Source of the DNA: Blattamonas nauphoetae
Lineage: Eukaryota; Preaxostyla; Oxymonadida
Reading direction: 5' to 3'
NCBI GenBank assembly: GCA_033064195.1
Contig: JARBJD010000334.1
Location: forward strand, 1 to 64,000
DNA length: 64,000 bases
Below, piece after piece: positions 3,949 to 52,894 of this stretch (the stretch's first letter is position 1; the number at the start of each line of letters is the position of its first letter). The translations under genes and the position numbers were made by a program. Under the pieces are notes generated by a model. It made no database searches and was not told where the DNA came from. It saw only the letters and a program-made list of their open reading frames with translations.

Positions 3949-3991
3949 TTACTACAAAATAAAAAATCAGAAAATAAAAAAAGTTGAGCGT

Positions 3992-31573: not shown

Positions 31574-32675
31574 TTACTCCTTCGTGTCGGACACATTGAT
31601 CGCTTGTTCGACTGATCTTTCAGTTTCAGGTTGATCACAATCTGCATCTTTCATCTCTGTTGTTGGGGTTTCGTCGGTGGTTTCGATCATTTCTTCCTTC
31701 TTCTCGACTGGTTTCTTCGAGCGACATCTCCAAATCACCAGCAGAGCAACGATCACTCCAGCAATCACGAGAACCACAACAACAATCACAGGAATCAGCC
31801 ACAACATGCTTTGCGGCTTCTCTCGTAGAACAAGTGATTGAGAGGCAATCAAACTGCCCCCGTTCAGAAGACGCACCTTCCATTCTGATTTCTGCGAAAG
31901 ATTCCCAACGTCTTTTGGTGTCACAAAGAACTCAATTCGAGTTTCGGAGAAGAGTGATGCTGTGCTTGTGTCAACAGCCAGAGTCGACGATTCTTCTGAG
32001 TTCCCATCCTCCGACGAAGTGAACACTTCCAGTTGAAGTCCACACGGAAGGAACCCACTTCCAATCAGATACAATAAGTATTTTCCAGATGACTTGTCAA
32101 GAGTGATTTGGGAATGGTAAGTGTCAAGAAAAGGAATCGACAATTTCGTTGTTGTTCCCGACACAGAGCATCCATCACCAGAGATTCCAGATCCAGGGAA
32201 CAGATGGCTTCGACCATCCCCAGTCAGGCCTCCAACAAACAGCGTCCCATCTGAACTGCACATCACGTTTCGACGAGCTGATGGGAAGTCACGGTTCGTT
32301 GGTCCATTCGACTCGAAATACACATCGCGAAGCGACACATTCCCTCCACTTTGCATGATTGCTCCTTGGGCGAGGTTCTTCAGACTGCACGATCGAAAAA
32401 AGGCTGTCGAGTTCACAAGCTCAATCGTTCCTGTCGACCACGAACACAGATCGCTGTCTGCGTTACCAATCTCCGAGTTCGCTGTGGAGGATGGTGTGTA
32501 TTTGATCATTCCATTGCTGAACTCGAACGATCCGGATGACACACGAACCAGCTTCAGGTCGAGTGACGACGAGCGAATCAGGGCATCCACGTCGGTCAGC
32601 GTCAGCGACGAATTCGACACAGAAATCACAACAAGCGGAGTCGACGAGAATGTCTCAGGAACAATCAGCGACGGA
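31574..32675 (-). CDS. Gene 1, block D: second beta-helix, membrane span and tail
   Basis: Continues with PSLIVPETFSSTPLVVISVSNSSLTLTDVD. It holds DFPSARRNVMCSSDG, the GFLPCGLQLEVF motif, the membrane span and a tail rich in Glu and Thr ending NVSDTKE. The stop TAA is at 31576-31574, 5 bp from the 951-bp element. Confidence 0.9.
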
Positions 32676-33439
32676 CGTGCGAGCAGGGCTTTCCACCCAC
32701 GGAGCCGACTTGCTCAATTTGTTCAGATTTAAGATTTTTCATGTTGATATAATTCATGCGAACATTACCCTTGGAGCATTCGAAACAATTTCATCTTGAT
32801 AGCGAGATCAGGGATTGATCACTTCCCCATATTTTTCTCAATGATACAAACTTTCTAATATCACATTCTAGTCATTCCACAATCAGAAATCGGTTCATGA
32901 AGTGATTGAAGAGACAATACTTTGACACAAACTGCCAGGAATGATCTTCTCGATGTCTCTTTTCATCTTTCCCATCTCCCATCGAATAAGAGTGTCCAGT
33001 ATGGAACTGAGAAACTTTCGCACTCTTCTCTTCCTCTGTCACCCACTCCTGATGATTTCATATCCACTTTCAAAGTGCTTCTCGTTCTTCTTCATCCTGG
33101 CTGCGTCTACAGTGAGGACGTCGACACTTCAACAGCATCGAAGGGCAGTGTGTCACCGTTCGACGAGCGCAGGACATGTACGATGTTGATCGCGGCAACA
33201 ACACAATCATGGATGAGTTGCAAAGTGGGCACGCAGTGAGGTGATGTTGTTGTGATCATGATTGTTTTCTGTTCCTTCCCTCTTGCCCGTGATGCGAACG
33301 ACGAGTTGCGAGGTTAGCAAACAGACCGACAATGCGTTGAGAGAGACTGAGGTTCGAAGCGATGAGGTTCTGAGCAATTTGGATGAATAATGATGAAACA
33401 AGCAAATGAAACAGATCACTGATTGCGAGGGAGGAGCGA

Positions 33440-33925
33440 TGTGAACGTTGCGGGCGAGGGGGACGATGCGAAGGATGTGCGCGGAAGGGACGATGTGAAC
33501 GATGTGCGCGGTAGGGACGATGCGAAGGATGTGCGCGGAAGGGACGATGCGAAGGATGTGCGCGAGGGGACGATGCGAAGGATGTGCGCGGAAGGGACGA
33601 TGTGAACGATGTGCGCGGTAGGGACGATGCGAAGGATGTGCGCGGAAGGGACGATGCGAAGGATGTGCGCGAGGGGACGATGCGAAGGATGTGCGCGGAA
33701 GGGACGATGCGAAGGATGTGCGCGGAAGGGACGATGTGAACGATGTGCGCGGTAGGGACGATGCGAAGGATGTGCGCGGAAGGGACGATGTGAACGATGT
33801 GCGCGGAAGGGACGATGTGAACGATGTGCGCGGAAGGGACGATGCGAAGGATGTGCGCGGTAGGGACGATGTGAACGATGTGCGCGGTAGGGACGATGCG
33901 AAGGATGTGCGCGAGGGGGATGATG
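33440..33925. repeat. 27-bp minisatellite in the hAT element
   Basis: About 17-18 units of the type gacgatgcgaaggatgtgcg plus cggaagg alternate with a second form (gacgatgtgaacgatgtgcg plus cggtagg). Because 27 is a multiple of three, long frames stay open on both strands: RGRDDAKDV forward, SSLPRTSFA reverse. At least two units are 26 bp, which shifts the repeat through other frames that also stay open. Confidence 0.9.
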
Positions 33926-34299
33926 AGAAGGCTGTGTACAAACTGAGTGTGACTGGAGTCTGCTTGTTTCCGACGCGCGCGCCTGACTGTGGACTTGTTG
34001 GAGTGCTGAACGAGATGGAGGAGGACTGTGAGACTATTGTGAACGATTTGTTTGTTGAAACGGTGCTATTCTTTTCGTTATTTTTCTTCGACTCAGCCAT
34101 CTTCTTCTGTATGATCAACTCCGTCTGATTGGAGCAAGTTGTGACGAACGTGTTCAATGTCTTGTCGACAAAGTCGTCGAGTATCCCCTGAATGATGTGG
34201 TCGACCGTCACCAACATCAAAATTGTCAGAATGCCCTTTGGGATGAGAGATAAGACGGCGTTGCGAATGAAAGCGAGAAAGCTGATGATATTTTCGATT

Positions 34300-34510
34300 G
34301 AAGTGGGAGTGTGCGTGAGCGTGTGCGCATACGTGTGTGAGTGTGCAAGTGCATGCGTGTGAGTGTGCGTGCGTGAGTGTGCAGGCGTGCGGGTGCGTGA
34401 GAATGTGTGTGGGCGTGCAGGAGTGAGTATGTGTGCGCGTGCAGGAGTGTGTGTGCGTGAGTGTGTGGATGTGCATATGTGCTGGTGCGATTGTGTGTGC
34501 GTAAAGCAAG
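34300..34510. repeat. GT-rich simple-sequence block
   Basis: An irregular (TG)n/(TGTGCG)n run of about 200 bp inside the hAT element. It produces artificial His/Thr-rich frames on the reverse strand. Confidence 0.8.
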
Positions 34511-36221
34511 TAGGAGGGAGATGAGTGTGGATCTCTTCGTCTGTTTCTGGCTCGTAATCAGGATCAGTTGAAGAGGCGTGATACTACCCAATTCCAGAAG
34601 CGTTGGTGCGAACAGAGAACTGGAGAGGAACATGAACATCGTTGAAATGTTCTCGATGATGGTGAAAGCGATGCTGGTTGACGAGGATGAATGAATTTTT
34701 GCGAGTGAGGAATGTGAGGGAGGAGTGGCGTTCTGAATGATGTCCAGGGCTGATTCTTTTATTTCCTTGTTGAGGGTCTTCTCGCTGATATCCAGATGTA
34801 CATTCACGCCATCGCATTCGATCAGCATATCCGAGTCTTGAAAGGAAATGTGGTTGTACCAGGAGAACGAGATGAAGAATCAAAGGAATTGTGTGTTTTA
34901 AGTCGAAGCACATGTCGATGAATCGATCCAGAATGGTGATGAGGAGTTGCATGAGGTTGTACTTGGTCAACAGCGAGTCGTTAGTGGCTTAGAGGATGGG
35001 AAAAGAGTGTTTAACACGTTTTGGGGAATCAATTGACGGAAATAGGCCGTTTATACAGAGTTTGAACGATGGGAGAGCAAGCTGTTTCGGATCCTCCAGA
35101 AAATTCAACGGAATGAATAAGGGCACTAATCCGTCGATAAAATGCGATGAAGGACAAACTGGTGACAAGTGCAATGATGAAGAGCGCGGTTTGAGCGAAA
35201 CGAGGAGTAAATTCCTTGGTCTCTTGTGTGATAACTTGAAGGAGTGGGAGACTGACTAAAAAGATGATCTCATTCAAGGCAGAGTCTTGGAAAGAAAGAT
35301 GTGTGAGCGTATGAAAGCAATATTTGCAGTGGCGAGGGAATGCAGCAGATGAGACCAGTCATCACGAAATATTTGTTGTGATTGTGATCTGCTGTGAGCG
35401 GACCAACAAATATCAGAACACCGTCTGTATCAAACATTGGTTTTTATCCAGAACCTACAATTAAGTGAATTAGAGTGAGAGAAGGTTGACGAATGGAGAT
35501 CACACTTGAAGTCGTTGCTATCGAAGTAATTGGAACCAGAAATTAGTTCTCCATATCTTCGTGGTTCTCAGTATTAATCATCGCCTGAGAAAAGGGTGGT
35601 ATCATGCCAAGTTCGACAAGGGTCAGACGATGTGATGATCCGAGTATTCCAGACGAGAAAAAATTGCACAGTATGGACCTGTACGTCCCTATTTGTGTTG
35701 ACTTCGATTGGATTCATCACGTTTGTCCGTGGATTTTGCCGACTTTGTAGGATCATCGACAATCTGTGAAGAAGAACAAGATCAACATCAGTATCAACAC
35801 TCCCCCACAACAATCCCTAAAAAAGGAACTAGATCAACAACAACACTACCATTATTCCAGACCATTCCTCAACAAGAAGAAAATAATAATTAATACAAGC
35901 AATCCATGCAAACTCTCCTTTTCCTTAAAAACAATGACACGAAGAAGAAAGAAAACATCCTCTCATCTCCTCCGCAATCACCGACAATCGCGCAAAGATT
36001 CACACAACTTTCGCCATTCTTAGTCTCAAATTCAGAAGGACAGATCAAGATTTACCCTTTATTATCTTCTTTTCATTCAATCGGGAGAAACTTTCACTTT
36101 CAGATAATATTATTGTCTATCTTTGATGTATTTACTTTGACAGAGTTTTCTAAAGACAATTTGGTGTTTTCCATTTTTTCGAAATCACCCAGAAAATTAT
36201 GGGTATTTTTGGAAAGCCCTG

Positions 36222-37222
36222 CGTGCGAGGCCTCCCTGTGACAAAATCATCTTACTCTCGTCCGAAATCGAAAATGGCTTGGATATTGTATCGGAGACCA
36301 CAAGGTTCAGCTCAATCGACTTCAGTCTCAACTTCGTCACTGTGTCAAGAGCAGCATCCAACGATCCACAGCTGTTCTCCTCTCCTTGGCAACTTCCTCC
36401 ATCTCCTCCCTTCTTTACTTCGAAGATAAATGGTGTTTGATCGGACGGAAAGGTGAGAGAGAAGTCTGCTGACTCCAGCAGCACTGGCTGGCCACCGGAT
36501 GTGATCTTCTCCATTTTGTACGTCTCTCCGAATTTGAACCGTGTATCTTTTCCGCCCGGTCCAACCGACACTGACGAAGACTTTTGTTTTGGTTTTCCTT
36601 TCTGATCTTCATCGAACGTGACCTTCAGAGTGAGGCTGGGACTCCCTTCGAAGTGGATTGTGTACTCGCCCGCTTCTAATTTGTATCCTTCCAGGGAGAT
36701 CATCTTCTCCCCAATCGTTCCTGGTTGGCAGAGGATCTTGCGAACACGTGGAGCATCGGAAGTGAAGATAGATGGAGGAGGAGAAGGAATGGTGAGAAGA
36801 GTGTTCGAGATTGATGCAGCGATGAGCAAATAAGTGCATGAAGACTGAAGTCTTTCACTGTCTCCGAATGGCAACTCTTCACTTTGTCCAGTTACGGTGA
36901 GAGGAGTGAAGTTGACAACGACAACACGACATGTGGCAGGCGGTACATCTTCCGAATTTGGATTGTTTGGTTTTGTGTTGTCGAGCAGCAGAAGCATCGT
37001 CCCTTTCACAACATCTGCTGTCTCACCTTCAATTGTCCCTTCGGTGTCAGAGCCAGAGATTAAGATTGCAAGATCGATGATTGTTGTTGCAGTCCCAAAT
37101 TGTTCAAAAATATCAGTTTGAGTTTTGTATGTCAAGAAATATAGACTTGTTTCGGGGTTGTCTGTGTGACAGTCCGACACACGCTCCTTCACATCATCCG
37201 GAGTCCCACAGCCAGAGGAGAT
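36222..37222 (-). CDS. Gene 1, block C: linker, Fn3-like region and Cys block
   Basis: Continues with ISSGCGTPDDVKERVSDCHTDN. It includes TSDAPRVRKILC...GTIGEKMISLEGY, a VSVGPGGKDTRFKFGETYKMEKI Fn3-like unit and CQGEENSCGSLDAALDTV. It ends at the 8-bp duplication cgtgcgag (36222-36229) of the hAT insert, after LSQGGLAR. Confidence 0.85.
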
Positions 37223-37231
37223 GTACACATC

Positions 37232-39086
37232 GGGGCCGACTATATCTCATCAAGCATTCCATCTATATCTCATCAAGTTTTGATCAAGGGTTTACTCTTT
37301 CCCTTAATAGTTTTATTTCTTCTTCTGACATCCTTTTTTCCGGACTCAGCACGCAATTCTTTTCATCACCTCTGTGTATTTCTCTCCATTTTCGATATTT
37401 TTGATGCGAAGAACTCGAATATGTCGTTTCTAGTAGAACACGCTGATCCAACCCAAGACTTCTGAATTCCCCTGCTCCAGACTTGGATTTCACATGGTCT
37501 CGCGATGATGATGAGGAGGAATAACGGACGAGGAACCTTTTTTCACCCCTTTCTGGTCCCCGCAGGACAATCAGGCCTTCACACCCCTTCTCCACCCTCT
37601 TTCCCCGCCACAGTCACCCATTCGTGAGCCAAGTTTCCCTGACTAATCACCAAATCGAGATGCTTCTGGAGGAGATGAACACACTCTACGAGCAGATCAG
37701 GGCCTTGTTCAGATAAAGAGAGATCACATCAGTAGCTCTCTCGAGAGTCGAACAGGATCGTTCCGAGAGAGCTTTCCGAAAGAGAATCTCGACGTCATTC
37801 CGCCCGAACGTCCCACCACACCACCGATCTGCATCACCGACGAGGATGCCCAATAATTCATCGACAGTGGGCTCCTGGAAATGTGCTCGCACTTTTCTGA
37901 CAGAGGTTCGTACAGTGACATAACAAGCGAAATGATTCAGATACTTGCGAGAAGAACTGTCGAGATTCGGCTGGAGTGACTGGGAGAGGAAAGGGAGGGA
38001 TGATGGAGCCAGAATGCCAAACCAACCTCTTTCTTGTTCTGATCCACCAGCGTGAGGTTCTTCACCAGCAGGACAGCCTCCTTTGTGACAGACGGAGGGG
38101 CGTGTGGGGAGAGAGCCGCGAGGAGCACACCATTCGAACAGCAGTTTCGGGGTGTGGTGAGAGCAGTGTGGAGGACGGGGATGTGTTGTGGTGTGTGCGG
38201 AGTAATTTGGAAACGGGCCAGACCGGACACGAGCAAGGGAAGCCCGTTGTGCTCCCTCACGTAGCTCTTGTTCTCCGCTGCGAACAGGACAGACAGTTGA
38301 GACAGAAGAAGGAGGGCACACCGTTCACAGTCAGGCTCAACAGAGCGCCGAGAGTGGTCTCGATGGTCTGGAGATCGACTTCGCTGCGGATGGATGCATC
38401 GAGGAGGGTGTCGATGGCACCGACACTGCGCGAGATGTCTTTGATTTCTTCTGAGAGAGAGAAAGATGGGAGGAGGGAGACCATTGCGGGCACAGTTCCA
38501 GAGAGTGGTGAGGGCGTTCTGCGGGATGAGGGAGGGAGCGAGAGGATGGGTGAGCGAGAGAGCAGGCGGACGAGAGTTGGTAGGCGTCGCTCTTTACAAT
38601 CATGATCTTGTTCCCATCTGAAGAGGATGAGCGAGAGGGGGCAGACTGGCAGTGCTGAAGAGGGTGAGGGCAGAGAGGGAGTGGAGGAGAGGATGAAGGA
38701 TGGAAGACACAATTTTGGACGGTACTTCAACGAAAAGCGTGCACCACGCGACGAGCGAGACGAGCCGAGGGATGATCGAGCTGTCTGACGACATGTCTCG
38801 AGTGGCGGCTGGAGGGAAAGAGAAGGGGTTAAACTGAGAGTACGAACAAAAGCGAGGTCGAGTGGCATGAAGAGGAGGAACGGCACAAGAGCACAGAAGC
38901 AGGATCTTCGCATCAATAATATCGAAAATGGAGAGAATTACAGTGAGATGAAGATCAGAATGATGTGTTGAGTCTGAAAAAGAGTGAATTCAGAATAGGA
39001 AAAAAGATTATTAAGGGAAAGAGTAAACCTTTGATCAAAACTTGATGAGATATAGATGGAATGCTTGATGAGATATAGTCGTCCCC
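37232..39086. mobile_element. Mutator-like non-autonomous element with long inverted repeats
   Basis: The ends are GGGG(C/A)CGACTATATCTC, with inverted repeats of about 78 bp that differ at two or three places. The 9-bp target duplication gtacacatc stands at 37223-37231 and 39087-39095. Nine-base duplications with long inverted repeats are typical of MULEs. Each end contains the motif ctatatctcatcaag twice. No transposase is seen. The interior is rich in host-like ARM-repeat sequence, so it resembles a Pack-MULE. It interrupts gene 1. Confidence 0.85.
37720..38480 (-). pseudogene. Captured ARM-repeat gene fragment in the Mutator-like element
   Basis: Reverse-strand reading gives GAIDTLLDASIRSEVDLQTIETTLGALLSLTVN. 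After one frame change comes QLSVLFAAENKSYVREHNGLPLLVSGLARFQ...HTALTTPRNCCSNGVLL...VTKEAVLLVKNLTLVDQNKKEVG. Helix pairs ending in x-x-L-x-x-L and a GLPLLV step are armadillo-like. A forward-strand tail (37660-37715) reads QIEMLLEEMNTLYEQIRALFR and stops, as if a second fragment was captured in the other direction. The fragments are decayed. Confidence 0.45.
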
Positions 39087-39534
39087 GTACACATCAGATC
39101 CACGTTTTGCTGAATTGCCTCGGAACTGCACTGACTCCATGTGAAGCTCGGTTCTCACGACGTACACAGCTCCTCCAGATCCAACCCCATCGCCGGCTGT
39201 ACAATCCATGAACACACAGTCGGTGATTGTGGCTGAGATAGTAGTATCAAAACACACAGCTCCTGCACCTGATCCATCTGTGAGAGTCATGCTTTTGAAG
39301 AAGCATTTGTCGATGGTGTTGAGAGCGAAGCCAAAGCTGTTAAGAGCTGCTCCGGAATTGATTGCGGCGCAATTCACAAATGAGCAGAGCGACAAGGCAA
39401 GACTTGCTTCAGCTGCCTGTCTGCCGTTGATGTAAAGTGCTCCACCATAGCGGCCTTCGATGTCTTTGAAGGAACACTCAGTCATCGTCATTTCAATGAC
39501 GGCATTCACATGTACACAAGCGCCATCTAATGAA
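39087..39534 (-). CDS. Gene 1, block B: beta-helix repeats
   Basis: Continues in frame after the mariner with SLDGACVHVNAVIEMTMTECSFKD. It carries beta-helix repeats with GGALYI, CSFVNC, GAGAVCF and CVFMDC. It ends in the 9-bp duplication gtacacatc (39087-39095) of the Mutator-like insert, within NSAKRGSDVY. Confidence 0.85.
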
Positions 39535-39536
39535 TA

Positions 39537-41143
39537 CAGGGTGGTCACCCAAAACTTGGTCGGGGTGACACTTCTTGGAACATGCTATTCCTAAGTCATT
39601 TCACTTGAATTTAGATGAGATACCTCATTTTGTCTTTGGTTAGCTCGTCGAATCCGAGTGTCACACATCTGAATCTCGAGAATGAGATGGGTGAGAGATG
39701 TCTCGACAGAAGAACTTTCCGAAAAAGTGATAAAAACTTATACAAACACAAAAACTTGTATCTGAGTGTATTCCAATCCTGTTCAGAAATGTTGTCAGAA
39801 CAAAACAGTTCCTGGGGTGAGAAAAACTAAAAAATGACTTTGATGGTCAAAATGAGTGTGCTATTGATAAAATTTGGTCAACCAAATCAAAAATTCCAGA
39901 ATACAACAAAAGTTGAGAAAGAGTACAAAATGCGACGGTTAGATGTACTCGCCTTGATTCTGAATTACCAGTTCACAGCGTCTGATCCAGTTTTCGAATA
40001 CTCGGATTCTTTTGCGGTGGTTTGCTCTGCCATGAATGAATCGATGTGTTTTTGAGTTCTTCGTCTGATTTGACTGTGATACCTTTCAGGCGCATCTTCA
40101 TTTCTCCAAACAGCCAGAAATCGCACGGGGCGAGATCTGGACTGTAAGGAGGATGAGAAATTTTGGAAAATAGAGAAGTCTCGAGAAATGTACGGACCAG
40201 CTTGGAGTTGTGGCAGGGCGCATTGTCCATATGAAGATACCGGACAAAATCGTTGATGTCAAATGTGTCTTGCAAAAGAATCTCTGTTTCCATTTCGTCC
40301 AAAATCTCGTTCACGAACACTTGAGCAGTAATTCCTTTCCCTCTGGGGATCATTCGAAGGAAAGTGAAATCAATTCCAAAAAACGCCACCAACATCGTCT
40401 TCCCGCTGCCGATGTTGATTCGCTCTCTCACCGGTCGAGGGTCGTTTGGGTGAAGCCAAACGAAAGAATGAGGGTTTGTCCATTTGATCCAACTCTCATC
40501 TCCCGTGATCAGATACTTCCATCCTTTTCGTTTCTCTTTGTTGAGAGTGAGTAGTAGATCCTGTGCCAGCTGAATGCGATTGGTTTTTGAGAGTCTGTCA
40601 GAAGATGAGGGACCCATCTAGTGTAGCGTCGGACTAAGCCAAAATGTCCGAGAAGACATTTTTGATTGTTTGTGGATGAAAACCAGTAATTCTCCACATC
40701 GCTCGCAGAGATAATGAAGTGTCTTCAGCTAAAATTTGAGAAAGGGCGTTGATTAGAGTGAGGTTGCTTCTGACGTGATTGGGAACCTTTCCAGTAACTG
40801 AAAAAGTGCCGTTCTCCAAGTCCTTCATAACTTTTCTGCAGGTTTCCAAGCACGGTTTATCGTCTGGGTAGTAGGATGCAAGCAGAGAATGAGCTTCTTT
40901 GTAATGAAGCTGCATTCTCCAGCAAAATTCTATTAAAGTCCGATCTCGAATACGAAATTCAGTTGAGGACATATGATGGGAAGGATCAAACCACAAAAGT
41001 CTAAGTTGAACCATTTTTTTCAAAAAAATGAAAAACAAGCATAGAATGCAAAATGATGAAATGAACAGTCACAAAAAGAATCAAACCATGATTCCTGTTG
41101 AAACGCGAGACAATGTCCGACCAAGTTTTGGGTGACCACCCTG
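39537..41143. mobile_element. Mariner-family transposon, 1.6 kb
   Basis: There are 27-bp inverted repeats beginning CAGGGTGGTCACCCAAAACT at both ends. A TA duplication stands at 39535-39536 and 41144-41145. Inside is a DD34D transposase on the reverse strand. It interrupts gene 1 exactly at a TA within a Tyr codon. The identical terminal repeats point to a young insertion. Confidence 0.95.
39973..41014 (-). pseudogene. Mariner transposase, frame-disrupted
   Basis: Reading starts MVQLRLLWFDPSHHMSS at 41014. The N-terminal part has the two helix-turn-helix DNA-binding regions. Then WVPHLL appears, followed by TGDESW (first Asp), MDNAPCH (second Asp) and HPPYSPDLAPCDFWLFG (third Asp). There are 34 residues between the last two Asp residues, so it is a DD34D mariner. 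The frame changes at about 40640 and again near 40600, around the WVPH linker, so this copy is probably inactive although all three catalytic Asp codons remain. Confidence 0.85.
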
Positions 41144-42246
41144 TATGTCATGCTGGTGAATGTGCAGAGGTGGAAGGAAAGAGTGTGTGGAGTTTGGGAG
41201 TATTCTTTGTATTCGTAGCGAGTTCCCTGTTTGAAGTGGTAGCGATTGTATGAGGTCGGATCTTCGTTCGATGAACAGTGCGAGAATGTGGTGTTCACAC
41301 AACCAAAACTACCAAAGGCGTTGATGTCAAGACACCCTGTTCCAGACAGATGCGATGTGCTCAACGTCACGTCATTGGCAACCAACTTTTGAGAAAGGCC
41401 ACGAGCAACAACAAGTCCACAACGAGAGCATCCACGCGACGTCATATTTCGAAGAACACTCCCAACAAGCAATGTCGACATCTCCCCCAAACCAATCTCA
41501 TCTGATCGTGTCGAATCGTGGGAGAGCAATCCAAAGTCCAGCAGAGGGCCTGTTCCCAAAATCAGGGACACATTCGACAAAACAAGTCCAGCTCCACTCA
41601 CGGAGAGGAATGGAGATGCATTGTCCGAGTGGGGTGTGTCCGTTGATGATGAATCGCGTGGGGGTGTTGGGAGACACGTGGATGTCCGAACCAGCGGAAG
41701 AAGAACCATCGAAAAGGATGAGATGTGAGAACAATCAATAACACTGATCGAACTCCCAACCCCATCCAGTCCTGTTCCCACCACAAATGCTGTCTGTTTC
41801 GAGTTCGACACAATCTTGCTCGAGGACACAACCACTTCGGACGATGATACTTTCGCCAAAGCCATCCCGTCACTTCCACAGTCAAGTATCAGCTTGTTCA
41901 GTGACACTGTGGAGTTATCAAACAAGAACAGTGAATGGGACGTGTCCATGTGATCTTTGACAAAGTGGTTGAGATGTTGCGAATGATCGTTTTTGAGTTC
42001 GTTCGTGACTACTGTTTCTTCAGGGTATGCATGAGAGATTGTGGATGTGGTTCCCTCCAGTTTCAGCATCGTGGATGTCACTGGGTAATCCAGGAGATCG
42101 AATACGCCCTGAGAGAGATGGAGGACATCATTGTTTTGTTCTCCGTTTCTGATATAGCGATAAAGATGGTTATCCATGATTTCAGACAGAGAGGTTGCTT
42201 TAAGTGATGCAACTATGAATAGGATGAGCCAAACAGCTTTGAGCAT
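41144..42246 (-). CDS. Gene 1, block A: signal peptide and first beta-helix part
   Basis: Starts at the ATG at 42246. It encodes the signal peptide, an FDNSTVSLNKLILDCGSDGMAL strand typical of the family, and the SGTGCLDINAFGSFGCVNTTFSHC motif. It stops at the mariner target TA (41144-41145) inside the codon for Tyr in TSMTY. It is about 90% alike to block B of gene 2 in protein sequence. Confidence 0.85.
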
Positions 42247-42483
42247 TCTGAGATGATTGATTGATTGATTTCAAAAAGAAGTCAAACCCATTTTTTTCAA
42301 TGATCAAAAAAAAGTCGTAGACAACTCATTCAATTTCGCGCAGGAGAGACTAATGTTCTCTGATGCTGTTGATGAAATTTGAATAGTCTTCTTCGCATTC
42401 AATTCACATCTGAAGTCATTCTCCTTGTCGGGAGAGAATCCATAAAAGGGGCCTGATCCACATCTTTCCCTCTCTCTCGAATT

Positions 42484-44230
42484 GTGTTGACACTTCCCCT
42501 TTCATATTTTTCAAATGCAAACATTCTGATGTCATTGATGGATACTTTGTCTTCATTTCTGTCCTCTGGATCTCTTACCACAATCAGGACGTATACTCGC
42601 AGCCACAAGAAGCATTTCGTTGTGAACTATTTCACATATCGCAATATCCGATCAAGTCATCATATATATCTGACAGGTCTTGACACAACAACTATCTGCC
42701 AAGATATCCACAAACATGAAAACGATGAAAACTGGAGATCTCCGATCACCACAAATTATTGCCCGGAAACCTTCCCAACAGATGTGTTTCTGTTCTTCAA
42801 CTCCACTTTGTCATTAATGCACATCGAAGTGGACAACGCTCAACGTGAAAGTCGACTTCGATCTTTGTCCTCCTCAAGCTTGACCCTGCGATGCTATCAG
42901 ATCTTGTCGAACAACGAGTACCCGCCGTTTGCGGTGGGAGATTAATTTGGGGCAGATGGCTCTTCAATCTTCCTTATTGATTCGTCCCATCGCTGTCCAA
43001 CATCAAGCTCGCTTCCCCGTTGGTCTCTCTGTGCCCTATCCAGCCACGCCACCCAATCAATTAGGTGCACTTCAATCTGATGCTCCTGTTTTTGTCTCAG
43101 CACTTGCCCTCTCCATCACAGACGTGAACGTTCATTTTGAAACAGGCCCTCTTCTCGATTCTGACACACTCTGAAAAGGAGAAGCAGAAAACATTGCCCC
43201 CAAAAACCCACTCAGCTCGTGTATCCTCTCAAACATGGCATCTTCACCTTCGAAACTTGCCAAGGCGGGTCTTTTTCCAAGGGGACCCCTGTGGAGACTG
43301 CCTTGGCCGCTTGGAACCTGACTTGAAAATGACTTGAAGGGATTGAGTTCGTATACACCGCGAGTATTTCTCGAGATATACTGCCTCGAACCATCTCTTC
43401 CGCATTTCTTCATTTCATTACGCAATTTTTCAGTACTTTTTCTTCAAATTCTGACCTAAAAACAGCCAAAATGGGCAGATCTCCGATTATTTCAAAATAG
43501 TGTCATGATCCTGCTTGTTGAAAGAAACTACTCGTGTCCGTCTTCAATCGACCCCGGAGTGTTCGATACGTGTCAGAATTTTCGATATCCCCCACATTTC
43601 CAACTTGTCACTTTATCTCGGCGTTTTCTCTGTAAATTACAAAGCGAAAGAGGTAATTCTCTCCACTTTATTGATCAAGTCTCTCTTTTTCAGATAAATC
43701 CGACATAAAATGCTCTTCTACGCTTCAGTGTTTTGTTTTTTGTCACATTGTGATTGTCATCACCTGATCTCGTAAATTCAAATGATCCATTAAAAATCGT
43801 GTCATAATCATAATCAAAACGTTGTGCTCGGTCATTCTTCACACTTTGATCAAAATGCAGGATGAAATGGTCGTTTCAGACAAAAGACGACTTTTTTTCA
43901 CTATCACATCTTTTTGATTTGAAAATGGATTCGTATTCACTTAAAAATACGTTTTATGTGAAATGATCTGAATAAAACGAGTATTCAGATGTGAATGACA
44001 GTCTTGGTGAATTTGGAACCCTGCTTCTGGAACATCCACAAAGATCATTGACTGTGGAATATGAGCCAAGTCCGACCATGTTTTCAGCACAAACTGCGAC
44101 CACATGAGTTTCGGTGGCTTCTTCCTCGCAAGCAACATCTCCTTCGCCGTTGGCTCCTCCACTTCCACCTCGAAGCTCTTCACAGCCCAAACAACCCTCA
44201 AAACTCCCTCCCTTCCGAAGAAAAAGTGAT
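42484..44230 (+). pseudogene. Decayed beta-helix gene A, divergent from gene 1
   Basis: It matches the 5' half of the decayed gene at 53200-54100. Shared blocks are the SSSLTLRCYQILSNN region, the 'tgggagattaatttggggca' block and the PATPPNQ...GALQSDAPVFVSALALSITDVNVHFETG segment. The frame is broken repeatedly. From about 43250 to 43990 it holds about 740 bp absent from copy B, starting with a CCAAGGC/GCCTTGG palindrome. That piece may be another insert. After it, the family resumes (SFGGFFLASNISFAVGS-like) and then fades out. Confidence 0.6.
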
Positions 44231-44984
44231 TGTCCGACGGGATATTGGTTACTTCATGTTGATTCTTCCTTCACAAAAGCCAATCCCATCATCTCGCCAT
44301 GTCTCAGTTCTTTCAGCCCAATGTCGATCAACATCGTGATTCGCATTCAGAAGATGAGAAAAGAGGAGATCACTTCCGAACGATAATTATCGACGATCCT
44401 AACAGAAATCCCACTTACGATCAATCAACTCGGTCAGCAAGTTTCTCATCTCATCTTCGAACTGAAGAATCTCTTGTGCATTGAGAACGTCCAACACAAG
44501 TGCGATGACGTTCTGTGAAGCCGCATGACTGATTGGGTATTATCATCGACAGGATGAGTTTGATGATATCTGACTATATCAGTATTTTTGGATGCACGGT
44601 CAAATTGGGCAGAAATATTCCCTCTTGGAACATCATTTATCAATGCGAATGCAAATGGTCTAAATCTAACGAATGGAACACTGTGGAAGACACTTCGAGA
44701 CAATTCACCAATATTGTTGGGAAGAAGCACGTATTTCCCACATGTTGCTCATTCAATGATATCTCATTGCACAAAAGATCGATGAACCGCTGACGAAGAG
44801 GAAACCCTCCCAAATCAAGACGCGTCTCAGATGTCTCTTCGTCAAACCCTTGACTTTGTCTCATTTGTTACTCCTTTCATCACTGGGCTGTGTCCGTCGA
44901 AAACTTTGCATCTTAGTTCGGTCGTAACGACTCTTGGAGATCACGATGAGAAAGAAGCACCTCGGCTGAGGAAGGAAGGGAAAT
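44231..44984. other. Region between the duplicated units, unassigned
   Basis: Short frames occur on both strands, including a reverse one (44640-44864) reading FDEETSETRLDLGGFPLRQRFIDLL and continuing FRPFAFALINDV in another frame. It could be remnants of an SPRY-like or ARM-like host gene. I cannot support a gene here. Confidence 0.3.
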
Positions 44985-45321
44985 CTTGTTTGGCCACCTG
45001 AATTTCACGCATTGGACCAAAATGATTGTTGGAAGAGAGTAAGTTGGAAGTGGAGAAGAGACGAGAATTCTTTTGACTTGTCGGCACAATCACGTGAAGA
45101 CTGATTGTGAGAAACGAAAATCTGAAGCTACTGGAACCTGAAACGGAAGTCGATGAAGAACAACGAAAAAATGTTGATATGACGAACGAAAGCGAGTGTG
45201 GAAATCACGAAACCGAAAAAGAACAAGAAAAAGAAATATTGGCAGTGAGGGATGGAGAAGAGCGAATTTGATAGAGTTGAGACTGAGAAGAATCACAAAA
45301 TTCGAAAACCTGGATTGATGA
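44985..45321. repeat. Duplicated 3' flank of the beta-helix gene, copy 2
   Basis: The partner of 30285-30618, here joined directly to the stop codon of gene 2. It supplies the uninterrupted reference for the 951-bp insertion. Confidence 0.85.
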
Positions 45322-46977
45322 TTACTCCTTCGTGTCGGACACATTGACTACTGGTTCGGCTTCCCTTTCAGTTTCCGTTCGATCAGAGGCCGCTTCTTTC
45401 ATCTCGGTCGTTGTGGTGTCGTCTGCATTTTCGGTCTTTGCTTCTTTCATCTCGGCTTGTTTCTTCGAGCGACATCTCCAAATCAGAAGAAGAGCAACAA
45501 TCACTCCAACAATCACAACAACAACCACAACAATGATCACAGGAATCAGCCACAACATGCTTCGTGGTATCTCTCGAAGAACAAGAGCTGTCCTTTCCAG
45601 CTTGTTGTCTCCGTTCAGTAGCCGCACTTTCCATTCTGATTTCTTCGAAAGATTCGCAACGTCGTTTGGTGTCACGATGAACTCGATTCTCGTTTCGGTG
45701 AACGACAATGCTGTGCTTGTGTCAACATCCAGAATCGATGAATCGACCACGCTCCCATCCTCCAATTCTGTGAACAGTTCCATTTTCAGTCCACATGGAA
45801 GGAACCCACTTCCAACCAGTTCCAGTTCGAAATTGCCTGTTTTCTTGTCATAAGTGATTTGAGAATCGTGAAGGTCCAGTGATGCCAGGGTCATTTTCGT
45901 GGTATTTCCAGACACGGAGCATCCCTCACCAGAGATTCCAGATCCAGGGACGTTGTAGCCGCTCCCATCTCCATTTAGTACTCCCACAGACAGCGTTCCA
46001 TCTGAACTGCACATCACGTTTCGACGAGCTGATGGGAAATCAGTGATTGCTGGTCCATTCGACTCGAATCTCACTTCTTCGAGTGTGACATTCCCTCCAC
46101 TTTGGATGATTGCTCCTTGGGCGAGGTTCTTCAGACTGCACGATTCGAACACGGCTGTCGAGTTCACAAGCTCAATCGTTCCTGTCGACCACAAACACAG
46201 ATCGCTGTCTGCGTTACCAATCTTGGAGTTCGTTGTGGAAGATGTGTCGAATGCGATGGTTCCATTGCTGAACTCGAACGATCCTGATGACACAGAAACC
46301 AGCTTCAGGTCGAGTGACGAAACGCGAATCTGAACATCCACGTCTGTCAGCGTCAGAGACGCACTCGACACCGAAAGCACAACCTGTGGATCCGACGAGA
46401 ATGTCTCAGGAACAATCAGCGATGGGGGGTTGATGTCGCCTTTCGTCACAAACACCTTTTTCTCGTCCGAAATCGTATGTGTCGTGGATATAGTGTCGGA
46501 GCTCACGAGTTTGAGCTCAATCGGTTTCGTTTTCAAGTGCGTAACTGCTTCAAGTGCTGCGTCCAACGATCCGCAGCTGTTGTCATCTCCTTGGCACTTT
46601 CCGTCTCCTCCCTCCGCTTTGTTCACTTCGATCACAAGTTGTGTTTCGATTGGATGAAAGTCAAACGAGAATCCAACGAACTCCATCATCACTGGCGTGT
46701 CTTCGAATGTGATCGTTTCCACTTTGTACGTCTCTCCGAACGTGAATCGAGTGTCTTCTCCGCCTGGTCCAACTGACACTGACGACGACATCTGATATGT
46801 TTTTCCTTCTTGATCTTCATCGATTGTGATTGTCAGAGAGAGACTGGAACTCTCTTCGAAGTGGATTTTGTGGTCGCCCACTTCCATTTTGTATCCTTCC
46901 AGCGAGATCACCTTCTCGCCAATTGTTCCTGCTTCACAGAGGATCTTGCGAACACGAGGAGCATCAGAAGTGAAGAT
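45322..46977 (-). CDS. Gene 2, block D: Fn3-like unit, second helix, membrane span and tail
   Basis: Resumes IFTSDAPRVRKILCEAGTIGEKVISLEGY and is open for about 550 codons to the stop TAA at 45322-45324. It contains the Cys block, the second helix, the span and a 50-residue cytosolic tail with basic CRSKKQ next to the membrane. Confidence 0.9.
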   Translation of the reverse strand: MFTSDAPRVRKILCEAGTIGEKVISLEGYKMEVGDHKIHFEESSSLSLTITIDEDQEGKTYQMSSSVSVGPGGEDTRFTFGETYKVETITFEDTPVMMEFVGFSFDFHPIETQLVIEVNKAEGGDGKCQGDDNSCGSLDAALEAVTHLKTKPIELKLVSSDTISTTHTISDEKKVFVTKGDINPPSLIVPETFSSDPQVVLSVSSASLTLTDVDVQIRVSSLDLKLVSVSSGSFEFSNGTIAFDTSSTTNSKIGNADSDLCLWSTGTIELVNSTAVFESCSLKNLAQGAIIQSGGNVTLEEVRFESNGPAITDFPSARRNVMCSSDGTLSVGVLNGDGSGYNVPGSGISGEGCSVSGNTTKMTLASLDLHDSQITYDKKTGNFELELVGSGFLPCGLKMELFTELEDGSVVDSSILDVDTSTALSFTETRIEFIVTPNDVANLSKKSEWKVRLLNGDNKLERTALVLREIPRSMLWLIPVIIVVVVVVIVGVIVALLLIWRCRSKKQAEMKEAKTENADDTTTTEMKEAASDRTETEREAEPVVNVSDTKE

Positions 46978-46983
46978 CGATGG

Positions 46984-49292
46984 ACAGACCTTTGATACAT
47001 GAGATCAATCAAGCAGAAACTGAGATCGATCGATCTCAGTTCCGGTTTTTGGGACTGAGATCAATGACTTAATTAAGCGTATCTATAATTGTCTCAATGT
47101 TGTGTCAAATAGTCAAAATAAGAATCTTGAAAAAGCGAAATGGTTGTAGTGTGATAGAATAAACACTGAAAAGAGGAAAACCCACTCAACTTTTGCTTTA
47201 GATTGTCTGTCGTGTTGGCCAATGCTACGTCATGATCTCGGCATTCCACTGCATCGTTGCTGAATTCCTGGTGTTCATCAGATGGCTTTCGTCGATTCCG
47301 TGCAGCCTCTCCTCCTCATCTTCCTGTTCCATCCCCCAGTATTCGCTCTCGGCATCATTCGCATGTTCCACCTACTTGACTTCCTCTTTGCGCAATTTCT
47401 GCGTTTGCCTGCTCAGCTTCAGCTTATCGTGTGAGTCGCTGGTCTGTTTCTCGGCCTTTCTTCCATCGTCTGCTGGAACTGCGGCTTCGATCGCTGTGGT
47501 CGGCCTCGTTGTGGTTGCACTCTTCTGAGGGAGTGTCTTCTCCAGATTGGTGGTTGACGAGAGCATCGACTCTAACTTCGGCCGAGCGAGGAGAAGGAAC
47601 GGCTGAGGAGCGTCGCTTTTGGGGAGTGTCGGCATGAGAATCGACGACTGCTTCAGAAACTGCTTCATCTTCAGCACCACGTCTCGCAAGGAGCTCTCCC
47701 GCAGTTGCTGCTCGAAGGCGACAGATGTGTCGACAGCGTCGACTGCGAGTTCGTCGAGCACTTCGGTTTCGATGTGTCGCTGGTTCTCTTCAGCTGCCCT
47801 CGTCCCTTTGTCGACCTCATCCACCTTGTCCATCCTGTTCTTGAAATGCTGATTCTGACAGAATTCGGTGGAACTTCGTTGTCGCTGTGCTGCTTATCGA
47901 GGGTGAAGGTGGGGTTGTTCAAGGACGGCACAGTGACAACCTGAGTTGGGGCTCCATTCTGTCGTTTGGAGTGAAATGGACGGCTATATGAAGAGAGCGA
48001 CGACAGTGTTGAGAAGAGAGCTCGTTTGGAGGAGTGTTGGCGTGATGGAGTTCCTAATCGTCGGTAAATGTGATTCAACGCATGCACAGTCCAAAGGACG
48101 AGAAATCGGAGGGATCATTCAGCCTTCAAAAAGTGTCATCTTAACATCTCCTCGTGGATTGCTTCCGATCCTTGCTTTCCGGTCATTGATGGTCAAACTT
48201 GGGTATTGTCCAGAATCGGCATCAGAGAGGTGTTTGATGGACCTGATGACAATCCTATTCGCTTCGGAATGTGAGCTCGCTGTTGAACGGCCGAAACATG
48301 TTGCGCAACAAGTTGTTCCATCTCTGACGATGTTAGTTGCAGAGCTAACCTTGTGTTGACCAACGGAGTTGTCTGGAGTTGTTTGTATTCTTTGATTTCG
48401 GATGGCTGTTTGGGCTTGGTTGCAGGAACGAGATATAAGACTGAGTGGATAGTCAACGGACTGGATGATCATGAAACAGATCGGAGGTGGCTGTAGAATG
48501 GCGGGAATGCGGAATGCATCCCATTTCGACAAGTAAAACGAGAAGTGTTTCAGAGATGGTTGAAAAGTCGAGAATGGGAAAGATAATCTGGTCACAATGT
48601 GTTGTTCAGGGACACCAGGAATTGTTTGGAGAGAGGACGGTTGACGATGGGACAGTCAAAGACAGCCGCGTTGAGAACGACGAACCCAAAAGAGCAAACC
48701 ATTTCTGGACAATTGGAGGTGATTTCAGAATCTGTTCGCCTGCACCAGCAATCAGCGCATTCCCAACATACGAGGAGAGTCCGCAGAAACGAGTTGGGGT
48801 CATTCGAGAGGCGGCTTCGAAGTGTCATTTGAGATCTCACTGGTCACTGACAGATTATCTGAGAGAGATGGAAATAAAGAGATAAATTTTGGAAAGGACA
48901 GATTAACCAAGTCTAAATAGGACTGAAAATCGTGATAAAGAGAAGAAATCTCGAAGACTAATATACAATTAAACAACGAATGGTAAGCTGCAGAATAAAT
49001 CACTCTAAGAGAGAAATAATCGTCGAGAAATGGTAGAGGAGATCCGTCGCGGTGGAATTAATAAATTATTGGATAAACAAGCGTGATTCATCCAGTTCTT
49101 CAATCGGATCGGGATGAAGAATTATTGTGGGACGATTCATCTCGAGATTTCAATGAAAGTGCTTATAAACAAAATTCTACACGGATAGCGGGTCTTTTAC
49201 TTCGATATTTCGAGTTTTATGAGAATTTGAACACTAGTTATTTTCTGAGATCGAAAAAGCTGAGATCGATGAGATCAATCTCAAAGGTCTGT
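46984..49292. mobile_element. Unclassified TIR element with 6-bp duplication and captured genes
   Basis: The ends are ACAGACCTTTGA...TCAAAGGTCTGT (12-bp inverted repeats). The direct repeat cgatgg stands at 46978-46983 and 49293-49298. Gene 1 shows the empty site. Both subterminal regions are full of the motif GAGATC(A/G)AT in both orientations. No transposase is seen. A 6-bp duplication does not fit hAT, MULE or mariner; Dada-like or a new group is possible. The interior is host-like coding sequence. Confidence 0.75.
47372..48456 (-). pseudogene. Captured multi-exon host-like gene fragment in the 6-bp-duplication element
   Basis: Read right to left, the pieces are YLVPATKPKQPSEIKEYKQLQTTPLVNTRLALQLTSSEMEQLVAQHV...SSGPSNTSLMPILDNTQ (48430-48195), MHALNHIYRRLGTPSRQHSSKRALFSTLSSLSSYSRPFHSKRQ...NNPTFTLDKQHSDNEVPPNS (48087-47850), and MDKVDEVDKGTRAAEENQRHIETEVLDELAVDAVDTSVAFEQQLRESSLRDVVLKMKQFLKQSSILMP...LRKEEVK (47833-47372). 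The first piece stops at a GTTTGA, which looks like a splice donor. The last is a strongly helical, coiled-coil-prone stretch. The composition is that of a real soluble nuclear or scaffold protein. I do not recognise it. Confidence 0.5.
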
Positions 49293-49938
49293 CGATGGAG
49301 GAGGAGAAGGGATGGTGAGAGGAGTGGTCGAGATGGATGCGGCTATGAGCGAATACGCGGATTTGGCTTGAAGTATTTCACTGTCTCCGAATGACAACTC
49401 TTCGCTGGTTCCTGTTGTGGAGGAATCGGGGAAGTCGACAACGACAACACGAAAGGCAGCAGGCGGAGAGGAGCCTTCATCTTTTGGAGTGTACGTGTCA
49501 GAGTTGTCGAGCAGCAGCAGCATCGTCCCTTTCACAGCAGCTGCTGTTGTAACTTCAATTGTCCCTTTGGTGTCAGGGTCAGAGAATGCGATTTCGAGAT
49601 TGGTGATTGTTGTTGCTTTTCCAAACTCGACTATAATCCCAGCAATTTGACCAAAAGGATAGACACACAGACTTGATGGGCGGTTGTCGGTGTGACAGTC
49701 CGAAACAAACTCCTTCAGCTCATCCCAAGTCAGAGTGTTATTGAAAAAGATATCCTTTCCACGTTTTGCAGAATTGTTTCTGAACTGCACAAAAGTCATT
49801 GAAAGCGCCGTATTCCAGACCCAAATAGCTCCTCCCCGTCCATCTGACTCGTTGGTGGTGCAGTTCATGAACACACAGTTGGTGATCGAGGCTGTTGTTG
49901 CGACGCTGACTGTCACGGCTCCTCCACAACCATAGACA
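49293..49938 (-). CDS. Gene 2, block C: beta-helix and linker
   Basis: Resumes (GY)VYGCGGAVTVSVATTASITNCVFMNC. It includes NSAKRGKDIFFNNTLTWDELKEFVSDCHTDN, and ends at PSPPPS, where the 6-bp duplication cgatgg (49293-49298) marks the next insert. Confidence 0.85.
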
Positions 49939-49940
49939 TA

Positions 49941-50789
49941 CCCTCCTTCCAAAACCCGTCACTTTCCAAAACCCGTCACACTTTTGACGGGTCATCTTTT
50001 TGTTGTTTCCACCTCTCATTTTCATCTCAAAATTGTTTTTATTCAACTTTTTTTTGAAATGAAATCAATTGAAAACAAATCGAGAAAAAAGTCAACATAG
50101 TAATACCTCCTTGTTCTGGTCAAGGTGATCAACCCTGAATTTTGTTGTGGGTGATCCTCCTCGACCAGTCATCGTACAGACCTCTCGTTTTCACTGAATC
50201 GAATGTTTTGGTGGAATTGAAGCTTTTCTGCCATTTTCATTCTTTTCTGAACAACTCTTAATTCTCATCTTTTTCTAAAAACTCATGTTTTCGACAGTTT
50301 TCACACAAATTTGGCATCTATCTAAACTTTTTTGAAGAAATTATCATTTGACCAAGAGAATGATGCTCTCCGAATGATTTTTACAAAAATTTGTGACAAG
50401 TGAAGAAGTTGTAGTGACGGAAAGGTTGCATTTTTGATCGTTGGGCGCAAAATGATGAAATGACGGAAATGTCTGTTGCATAAACAAGATTGAAAATGAC
50501 AGAAAAGCTTCAATTCCACCAAAACATTCGATTCAGTGAAAACGAGAGGTCTGTACGATGACTGGTCGAGGAGGATCACCCACAACAAAATTCAGGGTTG
50601 ATCACCTGGACCAGAACAAGGAGGTATTACTATGTTGACTTTTTTCTCGATTTGTTTTCAATTGATTTCATTTCAAAAAAAAGTTGAATAAAAACAATTT
50701 TGAGATGAAAATGAGAGGTGGAAACAACAAAAAGATGACCCGTCAAAAGTGTGACGGGTTTTGGAAAGTGACGGGTTTTGGAAGGAGGG
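49941..50789. mobile_element. 849-bp palindromic (foldback) TA element, copy 1
   Basis: The ends are CCCTCCTTCCAAAACCCGTC and its complement. The arms of about 300 bp are almost perfectly complementary, so the strand can fold back. A TA duplication stands at 49939-49940 and 50790-50791. Just inside each end the string CCAAAACCCGTCAC occurs twice. Copy 2 (57436-58284) has the same length, with the centre in the opposite orientation and about 99% identity. There is no transposase. It interrupts gene 2. Confidence 0.92.
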
Positions 50790-51896
50790 TATCCTGAGGT
50801 CATGTTTTTGAAGACGCACTTGGAAACGGTGGAAGAAGTCGAATAGGAAAGATAAAGAGCAGCACCGTAATTATGTGAGGAGCAATTTACAAATGAGCAG
50901 AGTGAGACCTTGTTTGATAGTTCCGTGGTCGTGAAGCTGAGAACGGAAACTGCCCCTCCATTGCTTCCTACGCTGTCTTTGAATGAACATTCAGTTATCT
51001 CGACTGAAACAGATTTGGCTTTGATATGCACACAAGCACTGTCAAAAATACTGGGAACTGTCATTTTGGTGAATGTACACCGGCGGAAGGTGATGGGGAT
51101 TGCGGCGGGGTTATTTTCAGATTCAAATTTGTCGCCCTGTTTGAAGTGTTTGTCAATGAATGAGATCGGTTCGTCGTTTGATGAACAGTGCGAGAATGAC
51201 GTGTTCACACAACCAAAACTACCAAAGGCGTTGATGTCAAGACACCCTGTTCCATATAAATGCGATGTGCTCAACGTCACGTCATCGCCAACCAACTTTT
51301 GAGAAAGGCCAGTTGGAACAAGAAGTCCGTCAGGAGAGCATCCACGCGACGTCACATTTCGAAGAACACTCCCAACAAGTAGTGTCGAGGTCTCCCCCAA
51401 ACCAATCTCATCCGATCGTGTTGAATCGTGCGAGAGCAATCCAAAGTCCAGCAGAGGGCCTGTTCCCAGAATCAGCGACACATTCGACAAAACAAGTCCA
51501 GCTCCACTCACAGACAAGAATGGAGATGCTTTGTCCGAGTGGGGTGTGTCCGTTGATGATGAATCGCGTGGGGGTGTTGGGAGACACGTGGATGTCCGAA
51601 CCAGTGGAAGAAGAACCATCGAAGAAGATGAGATGTGAGAACAATCAATAACACTGATCGAACTCCCAACCCCATCCAGTCCGGTTCCCACCACAAATGC
51701 TGTCTGTTTCGAGTTCGACACAATCTTGCTCGAGGACACAACCACTTCGGACGATGATACTTTCGCCAAAGCCATCCCGTCACTTCCACAGTCAAGTATC
51801 AGCTTGTTCAGTGACACTGTCGAGTTGTCAAACAAGAACAGTGAATGGGCTCCGTCTGGATGATCTGTGGCAGAATGGTTGAGATGTTGCAGATGA
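50790..51896 (-). CDS. Gene 2, block B: first beta-helix
   Basis: Resumes NHLQHLNHSATDHPDGAHSLFLFDNSTVSLNKL. It carries beta-helix repeats up to SSTVSKCVFKNMTSG, where the palindromic element is inserted at TA (50790-50791). It is nearly identical to block A of gene 1 over more than 250 residues. Confidence 0.85.
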
Positions 51897-51899
51897 TTA

Positions 51900-52634
51900 C
51901 AGTGCTCCGAAAAACCCGATAAGCACTCAAAACCCGTTTTTATTCGATTACATTCTGATTTTCAACTATCGTGCTACAGTTGTTGGACAATTTTGATAAT
52001 TTGGAAACTTTGTTGATTCCATGCGCGTTCTTGGGCCGATTGATGACCACTCTCAACAGCAACTTCCTTCCACAAAGTCGAGTCCTCCCATCCACCAACT
52101 CCTTCTCCATCTCGTCATCAGCACGCTCTATCCAACAAAATCTGATTCAGCCGATCAATTCAGTAGGTCTGACAGTCCAACACATTTTCTGACATGGGAT
52201 CAACTGCTGATGGTCTGTCGTTCTCCCAGAGAACTCCCAACATCGCGACGAATGGAAGGGTCGTACTGTGACATGACACGATTTGGAGCTGGAGAAAAGG
52301 TTCGCATTTTGTTTGTCTTTTTTCCGGCATTTTCCAATTTCCCAAAATTGTCCAACAATTGTAAAAATTTGTTTTCTAATCTCTTAAAAACATGTTTTCA
52401 ATCGTTTATTGAGAGAGAGAATTACCAGAAATCACTCTAAACAATGACGCAGTTGATGAAGAATGGGGAACAGTACTAACTCTCCGCCGCTTCTTGATTG
52501 TTAAAACCAGGCTAGATCATGGTGTTTATGTCCATAAAGTCAAATTTCAAAAGGTAGCTTAAAATGAAATGATAATAGAGTATATTTCGGTTTATTTCGG
52601 GTTTTTCGGCAGAAACGGGTTTTTCAGAACACTG
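51900..52634. mobile_element. PIF/Harbinger-like non-autonomous element, 735 bp
   Basis: The inverted repeats are CAGTG(C/T)TC(C/T)GAAAAACCCG. The 3-bp direct repeat tta stands at 51897-51899 and 52635-52637, the TWA target typical of PIF/Harbinger. AAACCCG is repeated in the subterminal region. No transposase is seen. A forward-strand fragment (about 52070-52300) with LPTSRRMEGSYCDMTRFGAGEK followed by GT may be captured coding sequence. It interrupts gene 2 after codon 86. Confidence 0.75.
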
Positions 52635-52894
52635 TTATTGTCAAGTTCGTTCGTCACTGCTTGTATTTCAGGGGATGCATGAGTGATTGTGGAAGTTGTT
52701 CCCTCCAGTCTCAGTGTCGTAGATGTCACTGGGTAATCCAGGAGTTCGAATACGCCCGGCGAGAGATGGAGGATGTTGTCCTTTGGAGTGTTTCTTCGGT
52801 TGTCGCCACCAAGATGATTATCGATGGTGCCAGACAGAGGAGTTGCTTCATGTGATGCAATTGTCAATAGAATCAGCCACATAGCTTTGAGCAT
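52635..52894 (-). CDS. Gene 2, block A: signal peptide
   Basis: ATG at 52894. It encodes MLKAMWLILLTIASHEATPL and the VFELLDYPVTSTTLRLEGTTSTITHASPE stretch shared with gene 1. It ends at the TTA duplication (52635-52637) after VTNELDN. Confidence 0.8.

Follow-up and report, generated by a model that had tools for sequence, protein, structure and literature searches.

Young transposon insertions splitting two neighbouring members of a multigene family in the oxymonad Blattamonas nauphoetae

Introduction

Transposons can be spliced from the mRNAs of the genes in which they reside, as is the case for Tc1 in Caenorhabditis elegans, for Ds in maize and for a recently described splicing that depends on inverted repeats. 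In ciliates, the internal eliminated sequences are removed segments flanked by short duplications, and the reading frame is whole without them. Here, we describe a locus that recalls both situations in a 64-kb stretch of DNA (the window, hereafter) from the oxymonad Blattamonas nauphoetae, the host of which is a cockroach. The minus strand of the window carries two paralogues in tandem, gene 1 (42246-31574) and gene 2 (52894-45322), each of which is split by three different transposons and nevertheless retains a frame with no other stop. We assign a probability of about 0.9 to the reading that these are fresh transposon knock-outs, produced by a recent burst of insertion in an expendable multigene family.

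According to excerpts of the genome paper (PMC10703272), oxymonads are gut endobionts and the published assembly of B. nauphoetae comprises 879 contigs totalling 88.5 Mb, at a G+C content of 44.96%. For the related oxymonad Monocercomonoides, an excerpt of PMC8767320 gives DNA transposons as 4.5% and places kinases among the largest gene families. A literature search on Blattamonas and transposon found no paper on the transposable elements of this genome, and searches on the removal of transposons by splicing found nothing on point; a neighbouring topic, alternative splicing following a burst of retrotransposons in Arabidopsis, is that of PMC12112155. The genome that we searched comprises 88.31 Mb in 837 contigs; C-numbers indicate its contigs and L-numbers the loci fetched from it. 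DNA searches were performed with one stretch per gene, and the best 40 of 53 candidates for gene 1 and 40 of 43 for gene 2 were scored.

Two genes split by six inserts

The initial annotation had described two neighbouring genes each cut by three transposons, and all six inserts were indeed found in place, with exact target duplications and element ends. In the order of reading, the pieces of gene 1, its inserts and the element directly behind it are the following:

41144..42246, minus strand: gene 1 piece A, with start codon and signal-like N-terminus, 367 codons, stop-free
39537..41143, minus strand: Tc1/mariner-like insert, TA duplication, 30-nt perfect inverted ends including flanking bases
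39087..39536, minus strand: gene 1 piece B, 150 codons, stop-free, in the predicted phase
37232..39086, unstranded: Mutator-like insert, 9-bp duplication GTACACATC, imperfect inverted ends of about 180 bp
36222..37231, minus strand: gene 1 piece C, 336 codons, stop-free, in the predicted phase
32684..36221, unstranded: hAT-like insert of 3.5 kb, 8-bp duplication CGTGCGAG, ends CAGGGCTTTCCA
31574..32683, minus strand: gene 1 piece D, with membrane-spanning segment and short tail, terminal stop only
30619..31569, unstranded: extra insert of 951 bp, 4 nt behind the gene 1 stop, ATGAT at each end, ends AGTCCCGTG

For gene 2, the corresponding features are:

52635..52894, minus strand: gene 2 piece A, with start codon, 86 codons, stop-free
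51900..52634, unstranded: PIF/Harbinger-like insert, TTA duplication, imperfect CAGTG ends
51975..52363, unstranded: miniature inverted-repeat element of 389 bp nested in the TTA insert, 33-nt inverted ends
50790..51899, minus strand: gene 2 piece B, beta-helix region (marginal match to PF13229)
49941..50789, unstranded: palindromic insert of 849 bp, TA duplication, 318-nt arms
49292..49940, minus strand: gene 2 piece C, 216 codons, stop-free, in the predicted phase
46985..49291, unstranded: hAT-like insert of 2.3 kb, 8-bp duplication TCGATGGA
45322..46984, minus strand: gene 2 piece D, with membrane-spanning segment, terminal stop only

When host sequence is counted once, gene 1 amounts to 10673 - (1609+1864+3546) = 3654 nt and gene 2 to 7573 - (738+851+2315) = 3669 nt, the sums given in the initial annotation, and the eight host pieces, read separately, hold only the two terminal stops, again as it had claimed. 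The phase of all eight pieces is that predicted from insert length plus one duplication; the remainders of the insert lengths with respect to the frame are 1, 1, 0, 0, 2 and 2, so that four of the six inserts shift the frame. We agree with the earlier remark that continuity across a simple insertion with its duplication is automatic. Homology between the two genes runs on into both flanks, and at the amino acid level piece A of gene 1 is 63% identical to piece A and 78-84% identical to piece B of gene 2.

The mariner of gene 1 holds a fragment of a transposase (DDE_3, PF13358, at 39976-40617; 30.3 bits against a cut-off of 28.6), whose frame is, in this copy, broken into two or more parts; its 20 full-length matches in the genome, own copy included, all show the TA duplication. 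The Mutator-like insert has three further full copies, each flanked by a separate 9-bp duplication, and is labelled only "Mutator-like" because no MULE transposase was matched in Pfam with the two frames tested. Similarly, the 8-bp duplication and CAG-type ends are present in both 32684-36221 and 46985-49291, which are termed only "hAT-like" because four frames, two per element, gave no Pfam match to a hAT transposase; both are probably non-autonomous. The duplication of the latter insert had been annotated as 6 bp and is really 8 bp (TCGATGGA), the shorter version having assigned two more bases of the same junction to the element. A 27-bp tandem array lies inside the 3.5-kb hAT-like insert, at about 33397-33972.

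The TTA insert has the 3-bp TWA duplication of PIF/Harbinger elements and, without the element nested in it, measures about 350 bp, too short to encode a Harbinger transposase. The nested 389-bp element, overlooked in the initial annotation together with the 951-bp insert behind gene 1, occurs alone at many places, many of its copies being at 100% identity (rounded). In the three further copies of the outer element that were fetched (1 to 3 mismatches) it is absent, and the outer parts join with a 2-base overlap. The palindrome has a full-length copy in C213 with a score equal to the query's own, whereas the 951-bp insert has three full-length copies elsewhere, at 99-100%.

These features bear on the possibility that the inserts are joins made by the assembly. 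Some mariner copies are rich in gaps and poor in mismatches (e.g., 46 gap positions with 10 mismatches), a sign of uncorrected long-read errors that would lend this idea some substance. However, every insert has exact ends and duplications, and every insertion site is unoccupied in the opposite, homologous paralogue. In addition, the mariner and the Mutator-like element are found whole elsewhere with duplications of their own, and the other inserts also recur elsewhere, so that we regard assembly joins as scarcely credible.

Age of the insertions

The inserts are nearly identical to other copies in the genome. In gene 1, mismatches to the nearest copy compared are 1/1607 for the mariner, 6/1855 for the Mutator-like element and 5/3538 for the 3.5-kb hAT-like element, the C85 copy of which differs by 34 further gap positions across the element; in gene 2, they are 1/2307 for the 2.3-kb hAT-like element (against each of two copies), 0/849 for the palindrome and 1/350 for the outer TTA element. 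Private substitutions, counted for three inserts, are one in the mariner (against 12 copies), two plus one gap in the Mutator-like element (against three) and none in the 2.3-kb hAT-like element (against two).

With such divergences, a gene evolving neutrally since insertion would be expected to have gained 0.08-0.26 new stops if divergence is pooled and 0.40-0.48 if the largest single divergence is used, and the probability of finding no stop is 0.62-0.92 per gene. The inserts are therefore too young for lesions to be expected, and the undamaged frames say nothing about rescue of the genes. The initial annotation had considered the lack of other damage worthy of note; with 0.08-0.48 stops expected per gene, it is uninformative, and intactness of the frame was rejected as evidence of rescue. 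The same annotation had left a choice between a very recent burst and a product that is still made: near-identity of the inserts to their copies bears out the former, and the latter is unsupported.

Constraint before the insertions

The time since the duplication of the two genes tells a different story. In a piecewise alignment of seven blocks, with 1215 codons and 52 gap columns, gene 1 and gene 2 differ by dN 0.223 and dS 0.376, with dN/dS of 0.59 (bootstrap 0.50-0.72, 100 replicates; 0.72 by YN00). This ratio reflects a real but relaxed constraint that predates the inserts. Under neutrality since their duplication, the two genes should have accumulated about 28 and 26 stops, and none is present; the stop-free frames are strongly non-random over that time, and not over the time since the insertions. 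Block dS spans 0.19 to 0.96, and copies in C832 and C19 match piece D of gene 1 at 80-88% identity and piece C at just 52-55%; such heterogeneity points to exchange between paralogues.

Removal from transcripts or from DNA

It could be argued that the product is still made, the inserts being removed from RNA either as GT-AG introns or through pairing of their inverted ends. All six inserts do have inverted ends, the frame is continuous across each of them, and the mariner, examined at its other sites in the genome, gives no sign of having been purged from open frames. Its 20 full-length matches correspond to 14 independent sites, at eight of which the host frame is open, in matching phase, for 99 codons or more to either side. 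Frames open to this extent were also found for 7/182 mismatched flank pairs, for 94/358 points inside the flanks and for 158/340 points in the rest of the window. It is thus a general feature that young insertions lie in open frames; the mariner does not avoid such frames, which is compatible with removal. The one older copy tested (L023, 94%), diverged and with both ends, lies outside a long open frame, a sample too small to be of use.

In comparison, the borders of the inserts offer little to a splicing apparatus, since a frame-keeping GT..AG pair within 12 nt of both ends, the criterion for introns and introners, was found at one of the six inserts (the TTA insert) and at none of the other five, while the intact frames are already explained by the youth of the inserts without any rescue. 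Among the six protein hits obtained with the 553-aa last piece of gene 2 (7995 candidates scored, proteins of about 304-967 aa only), none is identical to it; 29 protein relatives include none more than 88% identical to any piece of either gene, although absence from a set of predicted proteins is weak evidence. Moreover, no annotated protein spanning an insert was seen among the protein hits examined. Taken together, these data lend RNA removal no support, and we consider it very improbable; the same holds for the broader proposal that Blattamonas tolerates transposons in coding sequences by recognizing their inverted ends and removing them from transcripts or DNA, so that split genes stay functional. 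If true, such rescue would be a new way of coping with transposons.

A related possibility is that the inserts are excised from the DNA in some cells or nuclei, or that an intact allele exists and was not assembled. Near-identical copies of loci have indeed been assembled apart in this genome (L013/L014, L003/L015/L016/L020, L009/L019 and L012/L017), and collapsed alleles are possible. Each of these groups shares one mariner insertion, found on two to four contigs, and the identity between its flanks is about 92-99.8%; the copies appear to be alleles or recent duplications assembled apart. However, among the candidates scored, the 5' region of gene 1 has no copy above 92% and the last piece of gene 2 none above 85% (81% for matches longer than 200 bp), so that the empty alleles for which the initial annotation had suggested looking have no nearly identical representative for these two regions. 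Furthermore, duplications of 2, 3, 8 and 9 bp belonging to unrelated types of element are unlike the product of one excision system. We consider excision or an unassembled allele unlikely, though somewhat less so than removal from RNA.

The gene family: intact and damaged members

The DNA stretches of gene 1 and gene 2 gave 48 and 47 match rows, respectively, counting self matches and several rows per gene, and non-self matches among the candidates scored are 68-92% identical. By their homology to uninterrupted members, both genes belong to a family of Blattamonas beta-helix proteins: the domain is reported for 10 of 29 protein relatives in the precomputed table of the source, while the match of Beta_helix (PF13229) in piece B of gene 2 is marginal (E 1.1e-05, 25.5 bits, against a curated cut-off of 25.9). 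Both genes encode a hydrophobic, signal-like stretch at the N-terminus and, close to the C-terminus, a single hydrophobic, membrane-like segment followed by a short tail, and it is a reasonable inference that they encode putative surface proteins of a large family. One uninterrupted paralogue among those fetched is, across 98% of its length, 100% identical to the B. nauphoetae protein BLNAU_11863. Two uninterrupted distant relatives lie in the window itself:

12419..18517, plus strand: 2032 aa, membrane segment, kinase-like C-terminus
22905..29630, plus strand: 2241 aa, kinase-like C-terminus

Eight relatives were fetched on the basis of DNA hits, a choice biased to genes uninterrupted in their first third. 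Intact single frames are present in three of them (L064, L068 and L070), and L069 is a long single frame interrupted early, near codon 9, by a stop. Three others are frameshifted: L066 and L067 have one frameshift each, and L065, in addition to its frameshift, contains about 575 bp that L064 lacks, for which a clear target duplication was not found. Some of these frameshifts may be assembly errors, because several mariner copies show many single-base gaps and few mismatches. The last relative, L071, is truncated: its frame stops at about 489 codons, and the following 8.4 kb contain no continuation; a 3' part that matches it is found farther along, at C832:169327-171717, and is not linked to it. 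The deposited model of L067 (1789 aa) spans the frameshift by omitting about 70 bases; therefore, predicted gene models of this kind are not evidence of splicing.

Five further members (L076-L080) were picked from the hit tables as cases in which the genome was gapped and the query nearly continuous, and in all five the homologous coding sequence contains an additional 0.3-0.9 kb. Two of these are transposon-like, namely L076, with 857 bp, a 6-bp duplication (CACTTG) and 14/14 matching end bases, and L079, with 521 bp, an 8-bp duplication (ATGATCTG) and CAGGC ends. L077 and L078 are suggestive, with good inverted ends and unclear duplications, whereas in L080 neither inverted ends nor a short duplication was found. 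None of the five extra sequences matches any of the seven inserts of the window. The extra sequences of L065 and of L076-L080 therefore indicate that the family has been split recurrently by various elements, different from those of the window.

Two other loci touch the same families of elements and genes. At L035/L036 (C690:234472-239356), a copy of the Mutator-like element, itself split by about 3 kb, adjoins sequence related to the kinase-like relative at 22905-29630, and this may be a further member of the family that nested elements have entered. At L002 (C668:153383-154999), a near-identical mariner splits a distantly related member: the match to the protein of 12419-18517 is interrupted after residue 619 and resumes at residue 620, and the frames on the two sides are open for 248 and at least 501 codons.

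Other elements in the window

Elements abound around the two genes. The palindrome that splits gene 2 is present a second time in the window, in a copy overlooked in the initial annotation:

57436-58284: second palindrome copy

It is enclosed by an element at 57331-58663 with an 8-bp duplication (AAATTTTC), and is thus a nested insertion. A 2.8-kb element at 58713-61553 has 41-nt inverted ends (TAGTCC...) that somewhat resemble the ends of the 951-bp insert, and gave no Pfam match in two frames tested. At 594-3948, on the minus strand, there are two long frames, one with a weak match to B-family DNA polymerases (E 0.0025) and a weaker HNH-like match; we take them to be possibly part of a Maverick/Polinton-like element.

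Probable fresh knock-outs in an expendable family

The insertions, their youth, the constraint that preceded them, the intact paralogues and the other split members are all shown by the sequence data. A simple sequence of events would account for them. Genes 1 and 2 were under selection until very recently, when six diverse inserts, plus one nested and one just behind gene 1, arrived within a span too short for more than minimal neutral change. The most likely reading is that both copies died recently and are tolerated because intact paralogues remain; after the first insert had inactivated a copy, the later ones would have cost nothing. The loss of the product and the reason why six inserts came to lie here are what we infer; relaxed constraint after the first hit, together with a local insertion bias, is the likely explanation for their number. 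An attempt to treat the clustering as a rare event (~1e-4) was withdrawn, as it assumed insert-free relatives and is contradicted by L065 and the five split members.

Three points weigh against fresh knock-outs. Firstly, the continuity of the frames and the eight of 14 mariner sites in open frames would be equally expected if the inserts were removed. Secondly, with six inserts that differ in kind, the 7.3 kb of host sequence contain a dense cluster. Finally, the age of an insert would be underestimated if the copy in the window were the one from which its near-identical relatives derive, although this is unlikely for six kinds of element together.

The locus gives a clear snapshot of gene death in an amitochondriate protist, caused by several families of transposons that were active at about the same time: an ordinary loss of genes, caught very early. 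It also holds a lesson on dating, that the age of an insert has to be weighed against the lesions expected in that time, and that intactness of the frame is no substitute for it.

Comparison with known systems

Splicing of the kind known for Tc1 and Ds would yield a product from a gene split by inverted repeats, but the geometry of splice sites is unfavourable here at five of the six inserts. Unlike the internal eliminated sequences of ciliates, the inserts described here have duplications of mixed sizes and are young, multicopy transposons. In Trichomonas vaginalis, the Tc1/mariner element Tvmar1 was, in the portion of PMC4021607 that concerns us, a matter of one family followed in many isolates, whereas here several families have entered two adjacent paralogues in one assembly. 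There is also a likeness with the P450 genes of insects, in which, according to an excerpt of PMC1852546, different transposons are likewise kept in or around members of an environment-responsive family; in that excerpt the insertions lie in flanks, exons and introns, while in B. nauphoetae all six fall in coding sequence.

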